Below, piece after piece: positions 3,481 through 46,100 of a DNA stretch of 55,530 nt (positions are counted from its first letter, which is position 1; each line of letters opens with the position of its first letter). Source of the stretch: Lobulomyces angularis (Eukaryota; Chytridiomycota; Chytridiomycetes; Lobulomycetales; Lobulomycetaceae); NCBI GenBank assembly GCA_027604685.1, contig JADHYX010000016.1, positions 65,420 to 120,949 on the forward strand. Reading direction: 5' to 3'. The translations under genes and the position numbers were made by a program. A model generated the notes under the pieces. It was not told the origin of the DNA, made no database searches, and was given only the letters and a program-made list of their open reading frames with translations.

Positions 3481-3905
3481 ACTAATAATATCCACACATA
3501 AACTTTTTTTTTTCATGGTTAAATGAAAAATTTTAAAGTTTTATTTTTTATCTATTCATCTTCGATATATGTAAAAGACGGGGTTGTTTAAACTTTTTTG
3601 ATGAGGACTTTTGTTTCTAATTGCTTTTTTTTTGATCCTATTTAATATAAAAATATATACTCTTTTTTTTTTTTTAATAAAATAATCATAATAAGTTACT
3701 AATTTATTAGATTAAAAAACCTATGTTACAGTTTTTTTAAAAAATAATGGTTTTCATTCATTACATCAAATGATGAAAAAGTTAAATTTTTTTTTTTATA
3801 CTTTTTTTAATTGCATTTTAAGAAAATATAATTTTTTTTTATACTTTTTTTTTGATTGCATATTAAGGAAAACATTATAGATTCTTCATAATTCAATTAC
3901 TCCAC
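3481..3905. other. intergenic spacer, B56 to CLP1
   Basis: This T-rich 3' UTR and promoter spacer has several runs of 8-12 T. No ORF or RNA gene was seen. Confidence 0.6.
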
Positions 3906-12542: not shown

Positions 12543-14474
12543 ATGACTTCCATTATTGAAAAGCAACGGCAATTACATGAAGAAATTGAACAGTATGAAG
12601 TAGATATTGTTCAGCTGTTATTAAAAAAATTATCAAAGCATAAGGAAAAACTGTTAAGGGATTATCAAATAAATAAACTGTTGGATCAAATCACACATAA
12701 TTCTATTACGCTACTTAATATTTACGGAGATCAGTCTAAGTAAGCTTTAATTATATTTCGTTCGTTAAGTATTCTATAAAATTAAATCAACTGTTTAGTG
12801 AGAGAACCAACGAAATACATCAGATTTCTAGTACTACAGACTTTACAGAATTTTATAATCGTTTAAAAGTAATAAAAGATCAGCAAAGACGCAATACTCC
12901 CTTAAATTTAACTTTATTAAATCAACAGCAAACCCTACAGCAAATTCAAAGAGATAAAGCAGATTTAAAAGACTTTTTTGAAGAAGAGTTGAATTTACTC
13001 TTTACAGCTGAAGAAAGTTTCGGAAAATATTTGGATTTGAACTTTTTATTCAACACTTATTTTTTGAACTTTTTAAATGAAAAGAGAGGAGATGATGAAA
13101 AATTTAAGGAAAATTTTAGTTATTTGAAATATATTCAAAAATGTGATGACTTTTCTTTAATTGATAAAGGTTTTTTTGCATTTTTTTTCAGCGTTTTATT
13201 TTAAAAAGAAAGAACAAAAAAAGCATGATTGATGGTCTTTAAACTGTTGTTATAAACTAAGCAAATGCTTGTACCCTATTCATTTTATTTTTACAGTGCG
13301 GAAAAAATGCATTTGATTTTTGTGTTTTAAAATTGTTTATTAATTAATTTTTTTTTGTAGCAAGAAAAAAGTCTCCAGAATACAACAAATATTTAGATGC
13401 TTTTGTTAATTACTTGGAAAAGTTTTTTGAAAAATCTATGCCACTTTTTGATTATGCTAATCAAAAGGAAAAATTTACAGAAGAATTCAACACAAATTGG
13501 TTAGCAGGAACAGTTGAAGGTTATGAAAAAAACTTTGAATTTAAAAGTCAATTGTTTTGCACACCATGTACGAATACTAAATCATTAATACCTTTCATTT
13601 TTTTTTTGTGTAGGTCAAAAACAATTCACTAATGAATTGGTTTTTGCTAATCACAAAACTGGAAAAAAGCACTTAAAGGCTGTAAAAAGAATGGATTTAA
13701 ATGAAAAAGTTAACAATCAGAATAATTTTAATTTGAAAGATATAGTTTTTAAAGAACACTTAATACAAAAATACTTGGATTTTTTAAAAGACGTTAGAAG
13801 GGATACATATAATAGAGTGGAAGGAAAGTCTATGCTTACAGCAGAAGAATGGGTAAGCCAAAAAAAATATTTTAGTAGCTTTAATAACAACTCAAAACAG
13901 CTTCACTATGGCGAGGAGCCAGAAGAAGAAACTTTAGCAGTAGGGGAAGAAAGCGAAGGAGACGACGATGTGGATGATGAAAAAATTTACAACCCTCTTA
14001 AGTTACCCTTAGGTTGGGATGGAAAACCTATCCCCTATTGGCTTTATAAATTGCATGGTTTAGGGGTAGAGTACCCTTGTGAAATCTGCGGAGGATATGT
14101 GTATATGGGGAGAAAAGTATTTGATAGGCACTTCTCAGAGTGGAGACACAATAATGGTCTCAGAGCACTAGGTGTGGGAAGTGGAAAGCAATATGTAGGG
14201 ATCACCGCAATTGAAGATGCTTATAAATGTGATAATTTAATTTAAATAATGCTTATTGTTCCTTTTTAGTATTTGAAAAACTAAAATCTGCTGAACAAAC
14301 CGAAATATCAAAGCCAGAAATTATAGAGGAGTTTGAGGACGCAGAGGGAAATGTTTTCAATAAGAGAACTTATGATGGTAATTCTATATTTTTTAATAAA
14401 ACTATGATTAAAATCTGCAATTACTTACTTGTTTCTATAAACTTGTAGATCTTAAAAGACAGGGATTGTTATAA
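12543..14474 (+). CDS. SF3A3: splicing factor 3A subunit 3 (SF3A60 / Prp9)
   Basis: This is the U2 snRNP SF3a subunit needed for prespliceosome assembly. Six exons (12543-12739, 12799-13169, 13361-13567, 13614-14228, 14270-14377, 14449-14474) sum to 507 residues, close to the human length. The N-terminal helical region includes EFYNRLK and KYLDL. A C2H2 finger lies in the middle (FCTPCQKQF ... HKTGKKH) and is split by an intron in the second Cys codon. An acidic run and the family hallmark IYNPLKLPLGWDGKPIPYWLYKLHGL follow, then a second, C-terminal matrin-type zinc finger (CEICGGYVYMG ... HFSEWRH). The end YDDLKRQGLL is typical. Intron 2 (191 nt) is much longer than its neighbours. Confidence 0.95.
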
Positions 14475-14709: not shown

Positions 14710-17700
14710 ATGACAAAGGTAGAAGATAAGAGTACAAGTGAAAAGGATAAAACTAAAAGTCAACTTAAACCAAAATCAAAAGATGAACTTGAAAAAGACA
14801 AGAAAGAAGAGGAAGCAGAGCTGGTAAGTAAATTTAGTAAAAACTGCTTAAAGAATAACAATATTAAAGTCTGAAGAAGATCAAGCTTTAAAAAATGAAT
14901 TGGAAATGTTGGTTGATAGGATCAAAGAATCGAATCAAACCTTGTACAAACCTTCCTTAGAAACACTAAAAACTTTAATTCGAACAGCAACGAGCTCCAT
15001 GACTAGTGTACCAAAGCCTTTAAAGTTTCTAAGACCGCATTATGATTTAATTTGCGAAATTTATAAAAAATGGGCTAATGGTCCTAATAAGGTTTTCTTA
15101 CCTCCTTTCCTTTCATTAAAATTAGAGCTTAATTGTACATCAACATTTTTTTACGTAAATAGCTTCTTTTGGCTGATATATTATCCGTTCTTTCAATGAC
15201 GTATGCGGCTGCGGACAAGAGGTAATTTTATACTCATTTAAATCATTTCAGTCCTGATTGTTGAATTTTTTAGAGATTGTCTCAGATACCGATTAGAAGG
15301 AAGTTCGGAGAGTGTTGGAAGTTGGGGTCATGAATATGTAAGACATCTTTCACTAGAAATTATGCACGAATTCAATTACCGTCAAGACAAGGGCGAAAAT
15401 ACCGAAGTGTTGTTGAAATTAGCCCTAGAGTTAGTTCCTTTTTTTATGAAACATAATGCAGAAGCAGATGCATGTGATCTACTTTTAGAATTAGAAAGTT
15501 TAGATTTGTTACCTAAATTTGTGGATAAAAATACCTTTTCTAGAGTTTGTTTGTATATAACGAGGTATTAATCAATATTTTCAGTATTTCAAATTTTTTT
15601 GTTAATTAGCTGCGTTAATTACGTTCCACCTCCCGATGATATTGCCATTTTGAAAACAGCCCATCAGATCTATCGAGAACAGAATCAATTTACAGATTCA
15701 CTTGGAATTAGTATTAAACTACGTGATATGAATATGATTAAAGATGATTTTGATTCTTGTACAGATCCGTATGAATTATCTTTAATAATGTTTTGCCTTA
15801 ATTAATATTTTTTTTTTAAGTATAAAAAAAAAACAACTTGCTTTTCTCATTGCCAGGGCACAAATTAATTTTGAAATAGAAGATGAAGAATTAAATGAAA
15901 TTATCAATAATTCTAAACTCTCTGAGCACTTTTTAAGTTTGGGTAGAGATTTAGATGTAATGGAGGCTAAGACCCCGGAAGACATTTATAAAAGTCATTT
16001 AGAAAATATTCGTAAGGCTAAAAATTGATTATCTTCTAACACATGTTTTCTGGTAGGAAGTGGAATTAGTGGTGCTAAAGTTGACTCTGCAAGGCAAAAT
16101 CTGGCATCCACTTTTGTTAACGCGTTTGTTAACGCTGGATTTGGTTCTGATAAATTGATGACTGGTGTTGAAGATGGAAATTCTTGGATTTATAAAAATA
16201 AAGATCAAGGTAAAATGTTTAATCCATAAAATACCACGTTATATATTTAAAAAGGTATGATGAGTGCTTCCGCTTCATTAGGTGTAATACTACTATGGGG
16301 TGTAGATGTGGGCTTGCCTCAAATCGATAAATATCTGTATTCCACTGAAGATTATGTTGTGGTATTGCTATATTTGTCTTTTTAACTTAAAAAATCAAGG
16401 CTGGTGCTCTCCTTGCAATTGGTTTAGTTACTTCTGGTGTTCGCAATGAGTCTGAGCCAGCTTTGGCTTTATTATCAGATTATGTGGAAAATAAGAAAGC
16501 GACTCTTCGTGTTGCTGCTATAGTTGGGTAATATCTGTTCTGTATTTAATATTAAAACTATTATTAGACTTGGAATAGCATACGCAGGATCCGAAAAAGA
16601 AGAAGTGTATGAGTTACTTTCACCGTTAATTTCTGATACTGGTGTGTCCATGGAAATTGCATCCCTGGCCGCATTATCGTTAGGATTGATATTCATAGGG
16701 ACCTGCCATGGGGAGCTTACTAGCTCAATTCTTCAAACAATGATGGAAAGAAGTGAAGCTGAGTTGAAGGATAACTTCGCTAAATTTATGGGATTAGGTT
16801 TAGCGCTGTTGTATTTGGGAAAGCAAGAAGCAAGTGAAGCTACATTGGAAACATTAAAGGTAATTGAACATCCCCTCGCCAAACAAGTCACTGTCTTAGT
16901 AGAGTGCTGTTCTTATGCTGGTGAAATTGTTTTTAAAATTGAAAAAATTAAAATTGTTTTTGAATCCAGGCACTGGGAACGTATTGAAGGTTCAAAATAT
17001 GTTGCACTATTGCAATGATCACCTAGATAACGAGAAGGAAGATGATACTTTCCAAGCATTTGCTGTCTTGGGCATCGCTTTAATTTCCATGGGAGAAGAT
17101 ATAGGATCAGAGATGGCACTTAGATCATTAAATCATCTGGTAAAATATATTTGAATTAATATTTAACATTGTAGATGCATTATGGTGAACTAGTAACAAG
17201 AAGGGTAGTACCATTGGCATTTGGATTGCTGTGTGTTTCGAATCCGGTTGTCAATGTTATTGACGTACTATCAAAGTATTCTCATGACCATGATCAAGGT
17301 GTTGCCCAAAGTGCAATATTTGCAATGGGGTTAATTGGGGCTGGAACTAATAACGCTAGATTAGCTCAAATGTTGAGACAATTAGCAGCATATTATCATA
17401 AAGAACCTAGCTGCCTTTTTGTAGTCAGAATCGCCCAGGTAGAAATTATTAAAATTTGAATATTGAAGTATTTTTTAGGGGATGATTCATATGGGAAAAG
17501 GCACATTAACTTTAAATCCTTTTTATGCTAACAGATCTTTAATGAATCCTGTGGCAGTTTCTGGGTTACTCACTGCTTTAGTTGCCTTTACGGACTCAAA
17601 AAACAGTATTTATCCCAATTTTTAAAAGTTTAATTTAATGACTTTTAAAGCATTACTTGGCTCAAATCACTACTTTTTATATTACCTGGTACCTGCTATG

Positions 17701-18014
17701 TTTCCACGATTTTTAATAACTCTTGACGAAAACTTAAATTCTTTGTCCACCACTGTGCGAGTTGGGCAAGCAGTTGATACCGTTGGTCAAGCTGGCAAGC
17801 CAAAAACTATTACTGGGTTCCAAACTCATTCCACCCCAGTATTGATGGCGTATACCGAAAGAGCTGAATTAGGTACTGAAGAATACATCGCCCAGAGTAA
17901 TATCTTAGAAGGTTTCGTTATACTAAAGAAAAATCCTGAGGTTTGTGATAACTTCTTTTGAAAATTACTTAATTTTTTTTTTAGTGGATGGATGAAGAAA
18001 AAGAGGCTAAATAA
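14710..18014 (+). CDS. RPN1: 26S proteasome regulatory subunit RPN1 (PSMD2)
   Basis: RPN1 is the large scaffold of the proteasome base that docks ubiquitin receptors and the deubiquitinase Ubp6. I read 15 exons: 14710-14823, 14870-15091, 15163-15221, 15274-15564, 15610-15789, 15857-16011, 16057-16209, 16255-16361, 16400-16527, 16568-16920, 16970-17139, 17175-17438, 17479-17605, 17651-17940 and 17985-18014. They total 880 codons in frame. The N-terminal Lys-rich tail leads into [16 protein letters not shown]. The proteasome/cyclosome repeats run from about residue 390 ([43 protein letters not shown]). The C-terminus has [25 protein letters not shown] and [13 protein letters not shown]. The Lys-rich insert found in human RPN1 after YAGTGNVLK is much shorter here. 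Confidence 0.96.
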
Positions 18015-18297: not shown

Positions 18298-21200
18298 TCA
18301 TTCAAATAATCCTCCTTTTACACGGCTATAAATCTGGGTTTTTCTTCTAACCATTTCTAGTTCTGGAGGGGGCTCATAATCATCACTATCATCATCACTC
18401 TCTTCAAAAATTTCTTCGTCAATACCAACTTCCCTTTTTTCATTTCCATACTCTTCTTTGGATAAAGATAGCGATTTTAATTTTTCCTGGTTTTCGTCAC
18501 CTCCATCATTTTCATCAACACTATCACCCTCATTAATGTTACCATCTGGGAACCTGCTAAAGTTTCTTTCTTCCAATAACTGTATAATTGTTTTTCTGCG
18601 TGCCTTAATGAGAGGTATAACTTCGACTTTTCGCTGTCCGTCATCCAAATTAAATTTACTACCTGCGAGATCTTCCAATTGCTCCAGACTACAAAATTTT
18701 TCAGTGTTAGTTACCAACTTTTCTTGGCTGCCTTTTTCATATTTTAAACTATTTTCATTAAAACTATCCTCAGGATAAACAAGATTATATTTTAAATTTT
18801 CTCTCCAATGAATTATTTTGAGCTTAAAGTGTACGGAAATAATAATGAGAATGATTCCTGAAAGTAAAATGACTAGTACTATGATAATGTTGGTCAAAAA
18901 TTCCAAATTCATGCCATATAAGCTAGAAGAGAAAAATTATTCAGAAAAATATCCTTAAATCTAGAAAACTTACCGCACAGTAAAACTGGTTTCAAATTTG
19001 CAATATGAAGTTTTATCTACATTAAAATTTGACATAGAGAAGAGTAAGTAGAGTTGGGGTGTACTGCGTTGAAAATTTGGAACTAGCCCGTAACAAATGC
19101 TGTTTGACTCACAAGCCCATCTATATCAAAAAATTTATTAAAATGGCGAAGGGCCATGTTTACATACTCAACAACTGTATTATTTTTACTAAATACGGCT
19201 TCATAGTTGTTAGAAAGTTGATTATATTCAAACTGTTTGGTACTTCCCTTTTCTAAAGCAATCCATACATTTTCTTGGAAACGCAACTGATTTCTATGTG
19301 GATTTACCAACTGAATTTCATCCTTAGAAAAATAATTTATAGTATCTGATGCAACATATTTTTCTTTGGAAAATCCAATTAAATTTAGAAAGTAATTTGC
19401 ATCAAATGGTTTAGTTTTATTGCTGATCAAATCCTTCACTATAAATTTTGGATAGAAGACTATCATATTTTAACTCCACATAATCAAATCAAATATTGAT
19501 ACCATCGGAAAAGTAAGAACAAGGGATATTTGATTCTGCACTTTCAGGGCAATAACCTTTTGACACAGCCGGCTCAATTGATTGAAAAGGTTTGCATCCC
19601 AAATTTACTTCAAGCATTATAACTGGCATCTCCTAAAAGAATTGACAAAAAGTAGAGTAAAGTATTTTACATTGAACTCATTGCTACACTGAAAAGTTGC
19701 ATCATCAATGAAAAATTTAAGCGCGGTAATATCAAAATAGTTTCCAGGTAGATGCTGAAAATTTTCTGATTTATTTTCAGTAATGGTGACCTATAACCAG
19801 ACATTAATCATACTTTATAAAAAAAAGTTACTTGAAATGTCACTGCATTCGTGCTCTTGTCAATGAATTTTTTAATCAGTACTGCTAATCTGTTCTTCAT
19901 CCCATTTTCAAAAACCAGTTCAATATCTTTTATGTTTTTTTGATACTGAGAATTTTTAAACACTATAGCTGTAAAAGTAAAGATCTCTCCTTTATCCAAA
20001 TAGATTCTTTCTGGGAAGTAATTCACGTCAATTGATTGTCTAATAGCGTCATATTCTCTAAATAAAGTATTATTAAAATATTGCCGTAACTATTACCGCC
20101 TTGTGTATTCAATTAAGTTAACTGGCAGAGTAAACTTTATTGTATCATAAGGACATACTTCCTAAAAAAAACAGTACCAGTAAATTTTAATTTGATAAAA
20201 TATACAATACCCTTGATAAAGAATTATGTAAAACAAATACTTCATTAAGATTTATTTTTTCTTTCAGTATGGTGAGACTATAATTACCATTAATTAAATT
20301 GCTGATCTGAAATTTCACTTGAAAAATATTATTAGAATTGAAGTTTGAGTTCTGCAAGAACGGCAAGAAAACAGCTTCATTTTTTATTATATCCAAATCT
20401 GTTTTTTTAATCAATCTAATATCGTTTAAGCTTGTTTCTCCATACCAAACCTTAAAACTGCATTAAAAATACATTGAGCTTTCAACGTACCTCTCCAATA
20501 GAATTTAAAAAAAAAATTGAAGATTTGGTGGCAGTGTGAAAATTAAGAATTTGGTTTTCGTCGCCGTAGTACTTCAAAACAGTAAATGTGTGGCCAAGAT
20601 CGTTGCTAAAAAAAAAATTTTGTTCCAAATTAAATTACTCTAGTGTACTAGTGTAAAAAGTTACCTTTTAAAAATAAAGTTACCATAAACAAACAGATCC
20701 ATGGAAAAGCTTCGATGAAAATCAACACAGAACGCTCCACTTAAAAATTTCAGTTTAGCAGAACCTGCAGAAATGTTTGAGTTACTTTCAGAAGAGGTTA
20801 GATTAAACAAAAAAACTTCTTTTTGTAAAATATTCTCGAAGTTAAGAAAAGTTGGAAATTTAAACTTTAACCTCCATTTTTTCTTAAATAAAAAAGGATA
20901 AAAATGATTAATACATATATGCCTGATACCAAACTGATGGAAAATGCGATTAACATATAATTAGAATCATTAACATAAACGAATATATTAATTGTATCAT
21001 TATCACTATGAGTGCATGCCGAATCAATAAATTTTATGCTACTGTAGCCCAATTTATGTAAAAAATCACCAGCAGTAGTAGCATTATCCTCCTTCAAAAT
21101 TAGGGAATCAATTACTTTAAAATTAGCTTACCAGTAGCTCAACAAAAAAAAGGTTGTTTCCAGAATATTTCATATAAACACTTAAATCTAACTCGCTAAT

Positions 21201-22352
21201 AGCGATCACATCAATTGCATCTTGAGATAGGTTACTTGTTTTATCCTGATTTATGAACTTTATATTAAAGAATTTCTTGGGACAGGTATTTGCTGAATAT
21301 ATAGTATAGTGTTTGGTGGCGGGTGTTATTTCGCGCCAAAAAAAAGCTTCACTGCCAAACTAAAATGATTTTTTGAGGAATAAAATATATAAAAATTATA
21401 CATACCTCTAATTGAAAGATGCCTAAATTCGTATATGCGTAAAAGTTATCTTTGATATTGGCAGCACTATATACAGTGAAATCTTCTTTGGCGCAATTTT
21501 TGTTCTGATTAACTAATAACCAAATTTAATTCTAATATGTGCAAAAAACTATTTACTGTTAAAGAGTTCTTCTAAGTTGAAGACAAAAGTGTTTTCAAAT
21601 TCATCCATAGTAAATATGATTTTCCAAACACCAGGAGCAGGTATTGCGCATAGCCAAATGGAGGATTTCCTAAACACCCAGTTACAGTTCAGCTTTGACA
21701 CATCTGGTATACTACTAAATTCTAGCACACTTAAATCAGTAACAAAATTTACAAATGAGTTCTAAATAAAAAATATATTTTTAATAATTCAAATTATTTT
21801 CCTTACTTTTAAATTATTTACAAAAAAATTATTTACTCCAAAATTATAGATGTAGTCATCAATATCGAATAAAAATGGAAAAGAAATGGATTCCGTGGCC
21901 GTTATATATAGAGATATTTGTGTGGATGTTTTTACTTGAACTGGAATTAACCACCTGGAGTTATTCTTGTCAAAATATTCTAAAGTTAAAATTTAAGTGC
22001 AAATTCAGTAAAGTTAAAAAATGGCGATTACCGTTAATATACTTTAAATTCACAGTAACCTCATTGTGAGGATCAAAACTCAAGAGAATACTTCCTCCAA
22101 AATTAAAATATTCGTTAGTTATACAACTCTCACAATGTTCATTATTGCTATCGAAAATTTGTATTTGAATGTTGTATGTGTTAAGTGGTGCTGGAAATTT
22201 TTCTTCTAATCCACTGTTTAAGTTCAATAATTTCACATTCCTATTTTCATTAATAAATTTGCAAAAAATTTTCCTTTAAACAAACTGTACCAAGTATATT
22301 CTGACTTTATAAACTTAAGTAGAAGAAATACCACAAGGATTTTCATAAGCAT
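18298..22352 (-). CDS. CATSPERD/E: CatSper channel auxiliary subunit, CATSPERD/CATSPERE type
   Basis: This is a type I membrane protein of the CatSper flagellar calcium-channel complex. Seventeen exons join in frame to 1107 residues: 22352-22291, 22240-22032, 21979-21807, 21761-21557, 21512-21406, 21359-21132, 21091-20930, 20882-20665, 20605-20491, 20450-20211, 20161-20097, 20057-19832, 19790-19671, 19632-19503, 19459-19168, 19120-18974 and 18922-18298. A signal peptide (MLMKILVVFLLLKFIKS) is followed by a large beta-rich ectodomain with propeller-like blades (TNLGIFQLE, an Asp-box-like SNDLGHTF). Then come the family signatures: NLGCKPF, a Cys pair with PCSYFSD, VFYPKFIVKDL, DTINYFSKDEI, EWACESNSICYGLVP, and SNFNVDKTSYC. 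A short LYGMNL stretch leads to one transmembrane helix near residue 910 and an acidic cytoplasmic tail of about 170 residues. The delta versus epsilon choice is open. Confidence 0.82.
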
Positions 22353-22583: not shown

Positions 22584-25003
22584 TTAACTTTTTAGCTTTA
22601 GTTCAAAAAAAAAATTTTTAATTTTGGTAGTAACGTTTGAGGATTTGAAAGTGCCTAGCTTTTTATTCATTGCAGATCCTTGTGTATTTGAATTACTGCA
22701 GCAATAAGAAACATCCAAATCATCTCTTGTCTGACATTCCCCCGCACTAATACTATTGTTTAAACAGTATTCTCCAGAGCTATAATTTTCTTTCCGAAAC
22801 TTTTTTGTCAAGCTTGAAAAAGAATAATTTTTTTTTATCAGAATTTCTTCCTCCTCTTTACTTATCAAGAAACTGGCAACATTTTTTTTTTGAGCAAAAT
22901 TTTCGTAATTTCCATTAAAATCAAAATAATTTAGGTCTACATTTTCCGCTGATATTTCCTTACTGTTATTTAAATTACATTTCATTGAAGGGAACTTTTC
23001 TTTGCTGAAGTTACTCGTTGATCCTTTTCGTTCGGATTTTTCACAGAAATCCGGGCTAGAACCAGCCGTAGACGTTAGATTGTTGTATGATATCAATAAC
23101 TTGGAATAAAAAGCAGAGTCCGTTACCAATTTTAATTCACTGTTTTTTAGGTTATCGCTACTGTTATTAATACTCGAAGCACTGGTGGGCAAAGAAGTCA
23201 TCTGCTGCCTTTTATTAATTTTGGAGTTTTTGATTAACTTTTGCAAAGAAAAAAAATTCTTTTGATCCTTTTTTTTTTTATCATATGGCATTTCATTGCA
23301 TTCCAGTTTACCAAAACCATAATTGGATGGCATAGTAAGTGCTTCAACTAGGAAAATTATAAAAGAAGATAAACACAAAAATAATTCTTATGAGTACTTT
23401 GCCGTAATAAACCAGAAGTTTTAAACTCAACGCAATCTGATGAGCCACTACTCTCATAGTATACTTCAACCTTTTGTTCAACACATGGTTGTTCTGTTTT
23501 ACCTAAATCACTAAAGCCAAACTCTTCTAATTCACGGTATAGTTCAGTGTTTTTATCAATATCAAAATTTCGTAACACAGAACTAAATTTTTTGTGTGTT
23601 GCTACTAGCTGCCTCTTTAAACCCATTATTGTTTCTATCAAATCAGCTTCATTATTATGTATATCGATGGGATCAGATTCTTCTTCTGGCTTTATATTAG
23701 CATAATTAATTTCAGACGCACTTTGTTGGGTTTTGTCGGGATGTGATTTAAGGTTACTTGTTGTGGATGAAAAATCAATTGATTCCCAATTATTTGCAAT
23801 TGAAAGACCTTTTTTTTCTTGAGATTTGGAGTTTAAATTTAGGGAGGTGGGGCTTAATATTGTAAAACAATCAGAGGCAGTTGAAGTTTTCTAGAAATGG
23901 AAAAACTGAATAGAATATTTAACTTTCCACCTACATGCTTCAAATCATAAACAGTTACCAGCAAAGTACATATGTCAGGCCGCAGTTTGGGATCCTTGTT
24001 TAAAATCAAATTGATTAAACCAATTAAACTTTTTGAGTAAGACGGATAAATCGGAATAACATATTTAGAATTGATTATATCCTGTACAGGGAATTCACTG
24101 TTTTCAAAAGGAGTAACCTTGGTAAAAATGATATTAAAAAAAAATATAGTATGTTTTATACGAAATAGCAAATTTTATACAATAAAACACCTAATAAGAA
24201 ATTCTATTAGGTAAACATAATTTCTTTTGCCCAAACCTAGAGCCCAAATATCCATGCCTTCATCAAGTGTGTCAGCTAGGTAATCTTTTTTTACTATTTC
24301 TGGTGATCGATAAAAGCAAGTTGTTTTATCCTCCAAGTCTTTTTCAAATTTTTCCCATTCTTGTACAAACTCTTCCATTTGATTACTTCTCTTTAACTCT
24401 TTTAATTTATTGATATTGGATTTTAACTTATATTTTTCTATCGTTGAACCTAAATCTCCAAGAGCCAGTTTTCCTTTTTCATTTAAAAAAAAATTTTCTA
24501 ATTTTAAGTCTCTATGAATTAAATTTCGGGAATGCAGGTTAAAAACTGATAACACAAGCTCACTAAAAATTTGTAATACTTGCTTCTCAGTCAACCTTTT
24601 ACTTTGATGAAATTTATTGATGTAGTCAACAATAGATCCATTTGAATAATATTCCATTAAAATTTTCAACTCGTAATACTTCGACTGGTTTTTTAATTTG
24701 GATAGTTTATTATCTAATACTTTTATAGTATTTGAGTAATTTTTAACTTTATCCTAAAAAAGAAATGAATTGAAAAGTGAAATTCTCAAATTAACGCACC
24801 ATATGTATAATTTCATTTAAGTTTTCCTCCAACGCAGACTCATGAAAAATTATTATCTTCAATGCAAAAACTTCGTTGGTAGAGATATCTTCTGTTTGAT
24901 ATATTTGACTGCCTCCTCCAAACTTTATCAGTCTAACTATAACTATTGTTCTAGCCTTAAAATTAATGATATGCCCTGCCTTATAAATACTTTCTTCATC
25001 CAT
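22584..25003 (-). CDS. NAK-family Ser/Thr kinase (AAK1/Ark1/Prk1 type)
   Basis: Members of this family phosphorylate endocytic adaptors and regulate clathrin and actin at endocytic sites. Six exons (25003-24800, 24753-24237, 24190-24162, 24117-23935, 23890-23398, 23347-22584) sum to 729 residues. The kinase domain fills about residues 15-315: a degenerate Gly loop (FGGGSQIY), the VAIK-like FALKI, catalytic HRDLKLEN, TTCFYRSPE and the NAK hallmark WALGVLLYKICYF split by two introns, then YPSYSKSLIGLINLILNKDPKLRPDI. The DFG motif reads DLG (LGDLGS). A long Ser/Asn/Lys-rich tail of about 400 residues, presumably unstructured, follows. The gene lies head-to-tail with the CatSper gene, 231 bp away. 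Confidence 0.85.
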
Positions 25004-27033: not shown

Positions 27034-29902
27034 TTAAACTGTATTAATAATCTAAAACAAATTTTAAGGTTAAAAGTTATATTAAATAGAATTCGAATTA
27101 CCTCATCAGCCTTTTGCAATGCTTCTATCATTTTTTTACATTCTTTACGTCGAGTTTGAGTTGAATCACTTTCTTTTAATGCTTCATCAAAAACTTCTTT
27201 CTTATAAAGTTCAGCTAACAGCTCTCGTTGCAATTCCTCTCTAGTATATTGAACTAAATTCAGCATTACAGCTTTTGGTACCAAATCTGCTGCTGTACGT
27301 TTAACAATGTTGAAATATGAAAGTAGTAAAAGTTCTTAAAAAAAAAAAATATTAAAAAAAAAAGATTTGTAATAAGTTACTAATAACTTCTGTCTCCATA
27401 TACTCCCTTTCACTTAAGTTTCCAGTTGCCTTTAATACAGCTGGAGGCTATTTAAAAAAAAAAGTGAGTTATTTTCAGTTAGAGTTTTTAAATTAATAGA
27501 TACCGCTTCTAATACTCCTGGCTTCTTCTTTTTGGCAAAAAAACTTCCAAAAAATCCTGAGTTAGCATCAGCGCTACTTTGTAAATTATCATTAATAGTG
27601 GAAGAAGGGTTAGGTAAAAGATTCAAATTTTGTTGAGGTTGACTAGCATTTGCTCTGCTGTTTTTTTGTTCAGCAGGGGTTAACCCTGACATTAATTGAA
27701 TTGGATTTTTTGATGCGTTCATTCTTTCGGTGACAATTGACATCGCTTTGTGACCAGTAATAAAATCAGGATGTCCGGTATTCACGTAGCAAGCTTCGGC
27801 ACTATTTTATTTTCATAAATAACGAAGTTTTATTTTTTTTTTTGGGTTTTTTACCTAATTAAATCAGTAACCAATTTGTTAGATGGAACCAAAGCTTTTT
27901 TAAAAAAATTTAAAACTACTGAATAAAATTTTTCTCTTAAGCCAGGGAAGCGTCTAAATGTCTTCACAAATAATAAAAAAAAAAATTAAATTTAATCTTC
28001 ACAATCGCTTACTGCTTTTTGTAATAATTTGTTCAAAATTCTGACAAGCTCATCGTAAATCATAGTAACGCATTTTAAGCTGGGCTCTTCCAGTCTTCTG
28101 ATCTGCTGCTTAACTAAAACTTCAAATGCAGCAGTACCAACAAAGAGAGCAGGAGAAGATCCCTTAAACAAATTAAGCAAAGAAAATGTAAAAAAAGCAT
28201 TATTACAGAGCTGTTGTAAAGTATAGTTCTTATGTCCACATCCTTAATTTGGTCAAAAGGGTCCATAGATCTTATTGCAGATCCATATATTTCATGAAAT
28301 ACAAAACTAATACGTGCACCACCACTTAATTCATCGGACGAAATCTCACTGGAAGTACCATCTAAAACTGTACGGTATTCATTACAAAACTCTGTTATAA
28401 CATTCAACACAACATTTGACTAAGTGAAGAAATTAATGACTAATAAAATATTAATTACAACACCTGACTATTCATTTCATCACCGAGAGGGTCACCCAAC
28501 TGGGCTAATTCTGCCAAAAATTTCTGCAAACCAGAGCTAATTCGTTGTTTAATTTCAGGAAGAGTATTTTTTATGTGAAACATAAGAATCTAGTAATAAT
28601 AGTTAAAAATCAACCAGTGTAACAAAAATAAACACCATATTCAGTTTTCTAGCTAGGAAAGGAGTACCGCAGTATTGAGCTTTAGATTTATATGCAGGAT
28701 GGTTCTCAAAGTAGTCACGTTCTTTATCAAGAGCAGCAGATATCATTTTTTTTGTCTCAATATCCTTTTGTCCTCTATTAACGACAGGCACATAACCTTT
28801 TCACATGAAGAATAAGCAAAAAGATAAGAAGAGAAATTTAAACCTAATCGTAAAGGAATAATTCTTCCTGCCAAAATATCGACAACATCAGTACCTTCGT
28901 CCATTAAATCAACTTTCGTTAAAACACCAATAGTTCTAACTCCTTCAGGATCAACTTCTCTTGCTAGTTTCAAACCATCTGAGTTTGCTAAATCTGTGTT
29001 GGCTGCAGTTACAGCTAAGATGATTGCGTTTGGCTTGGTTATGTACTTCAATAACATATCTTTAATCTGTTTCTCAATATCCTTTGGCTGATCTCCAACA
29101 GGTACTTTAGTTAATCCTGGTAAATCGACTAAAGTCAGTGTTAAAACGTTCGGTGAAAAAACTCTAAGATTAATAGGTTGATGTGAAACTCCAGTGTTCT
29201 ATGATTAATAAAAATTAGTTTTTATAATAAAATTTTTGTTCCCAGAAATGAAAGTTCAATTTCTTTTAATTCTTAAGTCGCTGTAAAAAGAAGAAAAAAT
29301 CTTACTGCTCCACATTTTAAATCTGTATCTTTTACGATTTCATCTCTAATTTTACTAAAATCATAAAATTTCTGACCAGGTAAATGCAAAAATTCTCCCC
29401 ACTCATCTTCATTTTCTTCTTGTCTGTGTGGCATAGGTTTGGCATTAGCCATGTTTGCTATACTATCCCCACTACCAGAAGATTTCTTTGAATCAACATC
29501 TATTAAAGGTTCCGGAACAGTTTTGGTGCTTGGTCTATTAACTAACTGTAGAACTAAAGGCCTTCTTGTGACAATCCCAGTTCCTAAAATTCAAGGTAAA
29601 GTTGGAAAGTTATACTGAAAAAATAATATACCACGAGGTAAAAAATCCTTTCCAACAATATTTTCTAATACACTTGATTTACCGCTGCTTTGGGAACCAA
29701 TTACAGTAATCTATAAATGCAAACAAAAGTTAAAAAATAATGAAAGAAATAATACTTGAGGTAAATCAATAGGATTTTGTACACCAACGGCAGCAAAAGA
29801 ACTATACAAAATAGAGTTAGATTAAAAATTGCAACTAGGCTGCTAAGAAAGATTTACGTACTCTTGAAGTTTGTTAACTGTATGAATTAGCTGATGATCC
29901 AT
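27034..29902 (-). CDS. VPS1: dynamin-related GTPase, Vps1/Dnm1 type
   Basis: This large GTPase mediates membrane scission at vacuolar, endosomal, peroxisomal or mitochondrial membranes. The start [13 protein letters not shown] matches Vps1 proteins. The GTPase domain has P-loop [21 protein letters not shown], switch-2 [14 protein letters not shown] and G4 [12 protein letters not shown] family-typical acidic insert precedes [16 protein letters not shown]. The stalk carries VINRGQKDI-like and [16 protein letters not shown] motifs, the [15 protein letters not shown] segment and a low-complexity variable region with [12 protein letters not shown]. The GTPase effector domain [11 protein letters not shown]...LLAELY ends in DEIINTV at a stop spliced into a tiny last exon (about 27034-27051). 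There is no PH or Pro-rich domain, so it is not classical dynamin. Vps1 versus Dnm1 orthology is not settled. About ten introns interrupt it. Confidence 0.92.
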
Positions 29903-43185: not shown

Positions 43186-46100
43186 ATGTCAAGCAGGAAT
43201 AGTTCCAATATACAGAATCATCCTTTTGATTCCATTCTTGGTAATTTTATGATTTAAACAAAACCTGTTTAATCAGAAGTTCAACTGAAATTTTAAAAGA
43301 CCGTCTTTTTGAGATTTTATTTTAAGATTTTTACACATAATATACTTCACTCCATTGATAATCATCTTGATTTTAATTCTATAAACAATTTTTTTTTAAG
43401 AAAATGAACATCCTTTTACCTTCAAGGATATTGGATTGAATTCTATATCTGTAAAGTTTAATTTATGGTGCATAAGTTTGTTAAAAGTTTAATTTAAAAA
43501 TAGGGTATTCTCAGCGACCCACATATGCAAGCTAAAAAAGGACCACAAGTACTTAAGGGAATGGATAATCTGGTAAATTTTCAACAAAACTTTTATCTTC
43601 AAAATTATTTTTCGGTGATTCCATAGCCGCAAGTTCCAAATACTTTAATCAGAAAAGTGAAACCAGCGGAGTTCGACCCTTATTTGAAATCTCTTGCAGA
43701 GGTTTTTGATAGATTCCAGTACAATCAGGCTATGGGTGTAAATGTTGCAACAGAGGGAACCCCACTTTTAGGAAATGATGCTAACAATGATGCCCCACTT
43801 TCTGCATTGAAAACTTTAATAGAAAAGATATCTGGTTCCCCAAGTTTAGATTCTAAAAGGAATAGAAATAAGAATAAAAAAGCTCACAATAGAATGTTTA
43901 GCGGAAATGCTCCAAATATTAAAAGTGTCCCCCAAATTTTTTTTGACACTGATTTCAATTTATGCAATCCTCATACTTTTCAAACAGTATGCGAAAACTT
44001 TGATATTACTGCATTAGACGATGAGAATTTATTGCCAGATTTTGTAGAAAATAACAATGTTTTACAGGACAAACTTGGTGTCTACTTGGATACTGTTGAA
44101 ATTCATTTAATCAGAGAAATTTCTAGACGAAGCAATTCCTTTTTTGCAGCCTTATCAAATTTGCAAGCTCTGCATCAAGAAACACAAAATTGTGTGATTC
44201 AAATCAACGAGCTTCGTAGAAAATTAAATACGGTATCGAAATCAGTGGTCTGGAATGGTTTAAATATAGTGCAGTTAAAGAGAAGGAGAGGAAATTTAAT
44301 AACCTTATACGGTGGAGTAAAATTAGTCTCAGAAATCACCCAAACGCAACCAATGATTCAAGGACTCCTATCACAAGCTGATTTCATTGGTTCCTTGGAT
44401 TTGATAGGTGAAACAACTTTATTATTAAGAGGAGCTGACGATAAGCAGCTTAATCAAACAGTTAAAACGGAAATGTTAACAAATAATATAAAACTTATAC
44501 AATACCCCACTATATTACCAAGGTCGTTAGATTTGCGACGAGTAAAAAGCTTATTAAATCTGAATGAAAAAATGCATGAAATGATGACCCTTATCTCTGA
44601 TATGATGTTAAAAGAATTTGTTAATGTTATTGTACCTGAAATAAAAAGTACCCCTGTGCTAATTCCCGATTTTAGGCATATTCCAGTACAAAATAGATTA
44701 AATATTGAATTACCGTTACCAACAACTCCTGCTGCGAGTTGGACCAATAATATTTTATCTGGAAAGTTTAGTTTTTCTGTTTTAAGTCAAACGCAGTCTA
44801 ATAATATCAATCCTTTGACAGCACTAACAAACGTGGATGGAGTAGAATTTAAAGCGGGAGATGAAAAATTAAAAGCTAGGTTGGTACCATTGGTAGTAGG
44901 ACTACTCAGAATGGATAAGTTAACATTAGCCTTCAATGCGTACAAAGAAGCTTTATTGTCATTGATAAAGAGTTTTTCGAAAAAAGTATGTAAATTTTTT
45001 ACTTTATTTTAATGTTGGAAAATTTATTTGTAGTATTATCCGCAAATGCTGAAAGAAGATGACGAACTTGCTCAAAACTCAAATTCACCTGCTGCAAACT
45101 CGAATCTGAGTAAAAAGCGTGAAGAAAAACAAAGGTGAAAAAAGTTTTTTTTTTTTTTTAATAAGTAAAATTAATCTGTTGTTATTATCATATTTTTTTA
45201 TACAACCACTTCATCAGTGCACTAGCTAAACATTTGCGTTCTTTAAGTTTTGAGTCATTTGCTGATTTATTAGTTATGATTTATATTACCCTATTATATA
45301 CCTTACAAAAAATATCAATTGTACATAGTGTAATAAAGGAGATATTAGACGAGGCAAAGGAGAGAGGTATTGTTGTTGGTGCTGAAGATATGAAGTTTTT
45401 CGAATCTAATACAACTGAAGAAAAAACAGTCCCAAAGCCTTTAAGTTTTTTGGCCCAAAAATTAAATGAAGATGATGATGATGATTTTGGATCTTTTGAC
45501 CACTTAAATATGAGTATGGATGCTCGGAGAGAGGACAAGTTAAGTACTTACGAAAGAAATACAAGAGGATCATCTACTTTTCAGGAGATGGTAACAATTT
45601 TTGATCAGTAACGTTTTATTTACAAATCGATTTTACAGATTGATGATTCAGCGGATATTGTTTATTCTGCAAGTGATCTTGCTCATATGAGGTGTGCGAA
45701 ATTGATCGGAGTAAGATCAGAGCAAAACGCACAGCTAAATCCAAAAGAATTTTATAGATTATTTGGAGCTACATGGGAATTTGTTAATGCTGGCGAAAGT
45801 CTAAGTGGAAGAATGTGTTTTGGATTAAAAAGCACAATTTTATCACAGGTAAATTTGTTTAATCAACAAAGTCTTCTTATTTTGATTATTTTACGAAACT
45901 AGGCAAAAAGTTTTGTAAATTTTTTTCATGAGGAAAAGAGTAAGCAGCTTGCGTTATTAATAGAAAACGAGCAATGGTCACAAGCAGAGGTTCCAGTAGA
46001 TTTTCAAATGATTACAGAAAAAATATTGCTTTCTTCAACATCAAACACAGCGTTGTCTCCCACTAGCCCTAATCCAGAAATAATAAATTCTATAACCTCT

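Follow-up and report, generated by a model that had tools for sequence, protein, structure and literature searches.

A gene very probably encoding the CatSper gamma subunit in a chytrid of the Lobulomycetales

CatSper is the calcium channel best known from the tails of sperm. In mouse sperm the pore is roofed by a canopy consisting mostly of the propellers of the beta, gamma, delta and epsilon subunits, and neighbouring channels are connected through paired gamma or paired beta subunits (PMC9205950; this and the other papers are cited from excerpts). Epsilon shares an ancient origin with CatSper1-4, beta and gamma, according to a study that included Allomyces among the genomes searched (Chung 2017, PMC5362262), while CATSPER1 and CATSPER2 are listed among the proteins specific to flagellated fungi, not all of which have kept CatSper (PMC13358043). 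CatSper in flagellated fungi is therefore already in print (PMC5362262, PMC13358043, PMC7935092). Human CatSper1 was among the queries in PMC3410928, an oomycete is described as having no CatSper2-like channel (PMC12223298), and the excerpts of these two papers and of PMC6660944 hold nothing on a fungal gamma; a literature search likewise found no paper naming CATSPERG in a chytrid. Here we describe a gene, in a 55,530-nucleotide stretch of DNA from the chytrid Lobulomyces angularis (contig JADHYX010000016.1, positions 65,420 to 120,949 of the forward strand; hereafter the window), that very probably encodes the CatSper gamma subunit, CATSPERG, as judged by sequence comparison. The initial annotation of this DNA had proposed that a flagellated fungus encodes an auxiliary subunit of CatSper, which gamma-family matches in Pfam and the PDB bear out, although it overrated the novelty of the find because CatSper in such fungi is published. 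The chytrid CATSPERG is a clear new member of a channel system known before from swimming fungi, and what sets it apart from the known CatSper of flagellated fungi and early eukaryotes is that the genes for gamma, beta and epsilon can be read out together in one member of the Lobulomycetales.

When the whole chain was compared with Pfam at E<=5, the only families returned were CATSPERG_C (1.1e-14) and CATSPERG_Ig-like (5.8e-7), both above their curated cut-offs and with PF22851 (Ig-like) preceding PF22846 (C-terminal), the order expected for CATSPERG. At the same threshold the chain matched no CATSPERD or CATSPERE family, including CATSPERD-E_C (PF22850), and did not match CATSPERB_C (PF15149). 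A sequence search of the PDB at E<=1 retrieved two distinct sequences, both of them mouse CATSPERG2 (7EEB chain F and 9UBW chain F), the better at 5.4e-8 over mouse residues 927-1085. The CATSPERG_C profile, run against the unspliced 20.8 Mb genome, gave two matches within E<=1. Both, with E-values of 0.0012 and 0.0043, are exons of the gene described here (window 19161-19460 and 18973-19122), and neither reaches the curated cut-off by itself. The protein resembles mouse CATSPERG2 in its C-terminal domain, in its length of about 1100 residues and in the VEWxCxxNSxCY and SNxxVDxxxYC stretches that precede the membrane helix in both; in contrast, its N-terminal half has diverged past sequence detection, and identity across the matched 159-residue mouse piece is 26%. 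The two motifs that had been pointed out ahead of a transmembrane helix are present at residues 844-884, with the helix following at 905-923. Hydropathy alone predicts a type I single-pass protein, whose outer part would carry 11 N-glycosylation sequons and whose acidic tail is 175 residues long.

The gene consists of 17 exons on the minus strand that splice in frame into one protein (Table 1), joined by 16 GT-AG introns of 38-64 bases whose GC content is 22%, compared with 31% in the exons; the longest unspliced frame at the locus is 212 codons from stop to stop. The extent, strand and exon number first proposed are borne out by the splice chain and by the junctions of a public model, and a single in-frame chain was rightly foreseen, although its length is 1100 residues and not 1107. 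The intron said to read as a false transmembrane segment is intron 7. The chain was built by dynamic programming with hand-set splice weights, after which introns 10 and 11 were corrected by hand to keep phase; the automatic run itself had given 17 exons and shares the other 14 of the 16 final introns. The public model, HK099_006917 from Clydaea vesicula (Chytridiomycota, Lobulomycetales; 1728 residues), represents the same gene, with 1005 of 1010 aligned residues identical, 78 gapped positions and 13 of the 16 junctions in common in an 8-residue context comparison. The unmatched junctions (5, 12 and 13) lie where HK099_006917 drops 38 and 40 residues, corresponding to residues 253-290 and 671-710 of the chain here. 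Exon 13 is supported because its inclusion lifts the Ig-like score above the cut-off of 27 bits (30.0 with the exon versus 21.2 without it).

Two further auxiliary subunits were recognized in the genome. On contig C446 lies an epsilon gene, which matches CATSPERD-E_C (1.4e-28) and CATSPERE_NTD2 (1.2e-7) and, weakly and under the cut-off of that family, Ig-like_CATSPERD (0.0024); in the PDB its best match is epsilon at 7.3e-29, followed by delta at 6.4e-16. Both matches of PF22850 across the genome at E<=1 fall on this contig. The gene (L032, 3990-156, minus strand) has a hydrophobic start and a C-terminal helix in an automatic splice model that is partly uncertain. A beta gene was found at the end of contig C141 (CATSPERB_C 1.2e-15; PDB beta 5.1e-10), which also holds the sole match of PF15149 in the genome at E<=1. 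The frames of the beta and epsilon genes are weak evidence, since the program that spliced them allows open chains only and the C-terminus of beta runs off its contig. The CATSPERD propeller (PF15020) had no match in the genome, and the same search gave none in the control genomes either.

A candidate pore subunit is encoded on contig C54 (L009, 2816 to about 4200) as a single six-helix domain, which matches mouse CATSPER3 (7eeb_C) at 1.6e-33 over one domain. Three four-repeat calcium channels outrank mouse CATSPER3 as whole chains (best 2.9e-36); their best single repeat, among the alignments shown, reaches 3.2e-14. Its relatives at E<=1e-10 number 155, and among the 120 of them that were listed are proteins named CATSPER3 from Rhizoclosmatium, Chytriomyces hyalinus, Phlyctochytrium bullatum and Allomyces arbusculus, animal CATSPER3-like proteins and, at lower rank, many bacterial ion transporters. 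The selectivity filter is interrupted by an intron (3752-3791) and after splicing reads T-A-V-G-W, in contrast to the usual T-x-D-x-W and to the T-V-D-G-W of mouse CATSPER3. In the 18 best relatives the corresponding position is Asp in 11, Glu in two, Val in three and Ser in one, the remaining sequence being too short. The Val-bearing sequences (two TAVGW and one TCVQW) are all unnamed proteins, and Ser occurs in Allomyces arbusculus (TSSGW). The absence of the filter Asp from 6 of 17 readable relatives speaks against a recent accident.

Several observations weigh against assigning the locus to the gamma subunit of a CatSper channel. Residues 1-600 match no Pfam family at E<=5, and the comparison of residues 350-499 with residues 405-539 of mouse gamma gave 0.3 bits, which is not significant. 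Two protein-database searches returned no further fungal gamma, the second being uninformative; in this second, an alignment search, none was found at E<=0.01 among 7268 candidates, and mouse gamma was not returned either. A second automatic splicing run, partly circular because its weights were derived from the gene's own final introns, recovered 15 of these 16 introns, placed intron 1 elsewhere and introduced an extra intron (18879-18823) that would excise the greater part of the membrane helix. Both changes were rejected because HK099_006917 has junction 1 as here and retains the helix. Finally, none of CATSPER1, 2 and 4 turned up with three DNA patterns, a search with probe sequences, the CATSPER3 query or the Ion_trans profile, searches too weak for absence to be concluded.

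It should be emphasized that these pore-subunit searches ran exon by exon, and that the filter of the CATSPER3-like gene is itself split by an intron. Of 13 candidates scored with Ion_trans, 12 matched at E<=10. Eight of these loci reached E<=0.001 and were inspected in their open segments, long or motif-bearing ones only, three of them more fully; one is CatSper-like (the gene on C54), and the other seven we provisionally take, by eye, to be CNG/HCN-, Kv-, BK- and IP3R-like. Among the four weaker matches, three adjoin loci already seen, and the match on contig C290 (E 1.23), read on both strands, was discarded as a CatSper candidate, its filter being of the potassium-channel type (TTGYGD). 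The CATSPER3 query gave five matches in the genome, all on C54 and all in its own gene. The pattern T-x-D-[DEG]-W occurred 37 times, versus 27 in a reversed control, and T-x-D-H-W 11 times versus 5; all 48 matches were read and none is pore-like. The intron-split filter pattern YAGNGAYGRNTGG had 34 matches in the genome versus 7 in the reversed control, an unexplained excess, and none of the 20 that were read is pore-like. A subunit survey of the kind proposed by the initial annotation yielded beta, gamma, epsilon and a CATSPER3-like protein, while CATSPER1, 2 and 4 did not emerge from weak searches.

Taken together, the beta, gamma, epsilon and CATSPER3-like genes in part support the existence of a CatSper complex in this genome. 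Clydaea makes swimming zoospores, and the Radial_spoke matches in the genome (six on two contigs, best 1.6e-40) make a CatSper of the zoospore flagellum the preferred reading. By analogy with the mammalian channel, on which both flagellar location and calcium passage rest, we regard a working complex there as probable. The complex in a zoospore flagellum that had been suggested at the outset is thus upheld as to the presence of several subunit genes, while its flagellar location we infer only. By the same analogy gamma would be a single-pass protein that sits next to beta and epsilon, with a large extracellular part carried above the pore on a stem and a single C-terminal helix. It may help to assemble a calcium channel from CATSPER-type pore subunits and to place it in the flagellar membrane. 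The subunits would then form one complex, and calcium entering at the flagellum could tune its beat and so steer the zoospore.

It could be argued that the protein is a true relative of gamma that no longer belongs to a calcium channel, either a leftover or a repurposed surface protein, CATSPER1, 2 and 4 having been lost and CATSPER3 having forfeited its filter Asp. The failure to find the three pore subunits and the TAVGW filter both fit this view. We consider it unlikely, however, as the genome retains gamma, beta and epsilon as well as a CATSPER3-like gene, the gamma frame being backed by the public model even if those of beta and epsilon count for little; the pore searches, moreover, were weak, working exon by exon when the one known filter is split by an intron, and the Asp is missing from other relatives as well. 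Within the preferred reading, a CatSper of the zoospore flagellum, a more specific proposal can be offered tentatively and with considerable doubt: in Clydaea, and probably its kin, an ancient beta-gamma-epsilon canopy may cover an altered TAVGW pore, giving a modified or partly structural channel that serves signalling in the swimming phase, outside sex. If so, the change from Asp to Val in the CATSPER3 filter would alter calcium selectivity or current, and it allows the need for all four acids of the filter to be tested directly. Zoospores are not sperm, and a working complex there would therefore reveal a role of CatSper in flagellar steering that preceded its role as a fertility channel.

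HK099_006917, which NCBI names 'hypothetical protein', differs from the model presented here in being joined to an upstream kinase and in having no N-terminal hydrophobic segment. Three of the five residue differences sit at its kinase fusion point, and the remaining two point to a different strain or assembly; on this near identity the gene was ascribed to Clydaea vesicula or a very close strain. The kinase gene lies at window 22584-24753 on the minus strand. That kinase and CATSPERG form one fused gene, as the public annotation has it, is very improbable. CATSPERG begins with an ATG of its own, and its hydrophobic N-terminus suits a secreted type I protein, whereas a fusion product would be hard to place across the membrane; on the assumption that the kinase uses its own stop near 22584, 231 bases lie between the coding parts; and HK099_006917 also drops 78 residues, partly in the Ig-like domain. 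The fusion model was accordingly set aside on the strength of the separate start, the hydrophobic N-terminus and the residues missing from HK099_006917, which appears to be wrongly fused. The public model thus hides gamma behind a kinase, and is worth correcting in the databases.

Least credible of all is the delta/epsilon type to which the protein had at first been assigned, for although auxiliary subunits are similar in layout and alike in their membrane-near Cys motifs, the suggested check against CATSPERD and CATSPERE profiles returned CATSPERG profiles instead, the Pfam, PDB and genome-wide profile matches all name gamma, and the separate epsilon gene, which served as a control, is called epsilon and not gamma by the same searches.

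Table 1. Features of the CATSPERG gene and its predicted product (window coordinates)
Feature	Position	Strand	Evidence
CATSPERG gene, 17 exons	18298..22352	minus	in-frame spliced chain, 1100 residues; 13/16 junctions in HK099_006917
Exons 1-9	22352-22291, 22240-22032, 21979-21807, 21761-21557, 21512-21406, 21359-21132, 21091-20930, 20882-20665, 20605-20491	minus	
Exons 10-17	20450-20211, 20161-20097, 20057-19832, 19790-19671, 19632-19503, 19438-19168, 19120-18974, 18922-18298	minus	
Intron 7; false membrane segment if read through	20883..20929	minus	
Likely signal peptide at the hydrophobic N-terminus (residues 1-17)	22302..22352	minus	hydropathy of 1.5 at residue 1 (19-residue window)
CATSPERG Ig-like domain (residues 609-707, exons 12-13)	19680..20017	minus	PF22851 E=5.8e-7, 30.0 bits, cut-off 27
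CATSPERG C-terminal domain including membrane helix (residues 751-930, exons 14-17)	18811..19512	minus	PF22846 E=1.1e-14, 55.2 bits, cut-off 27.6
Predicted transmembrane helix (residues 905-923)	18832..18888	minus	hydropathy 3.49, sole strong peak
Presumed cytosolic tail, acidic (42 D/E and 27 K/R in residues 926-1100)	18301..18825	minus	

A scan of neighbouring genes covered 10 open reading frames of the window, four of which had no match. The left neighbour of CATSPERG encodes the 26S proteasome subunit RPN1 (16524-17958, plus strand) and is convergent with it. The other neighbours identified from their exons are ordinary genes, namely SF3a60/Prp9 (13589-14242, plus), a dynamin-family protein (28746-29198, minus) and Vps54 (43627-45009, plus).
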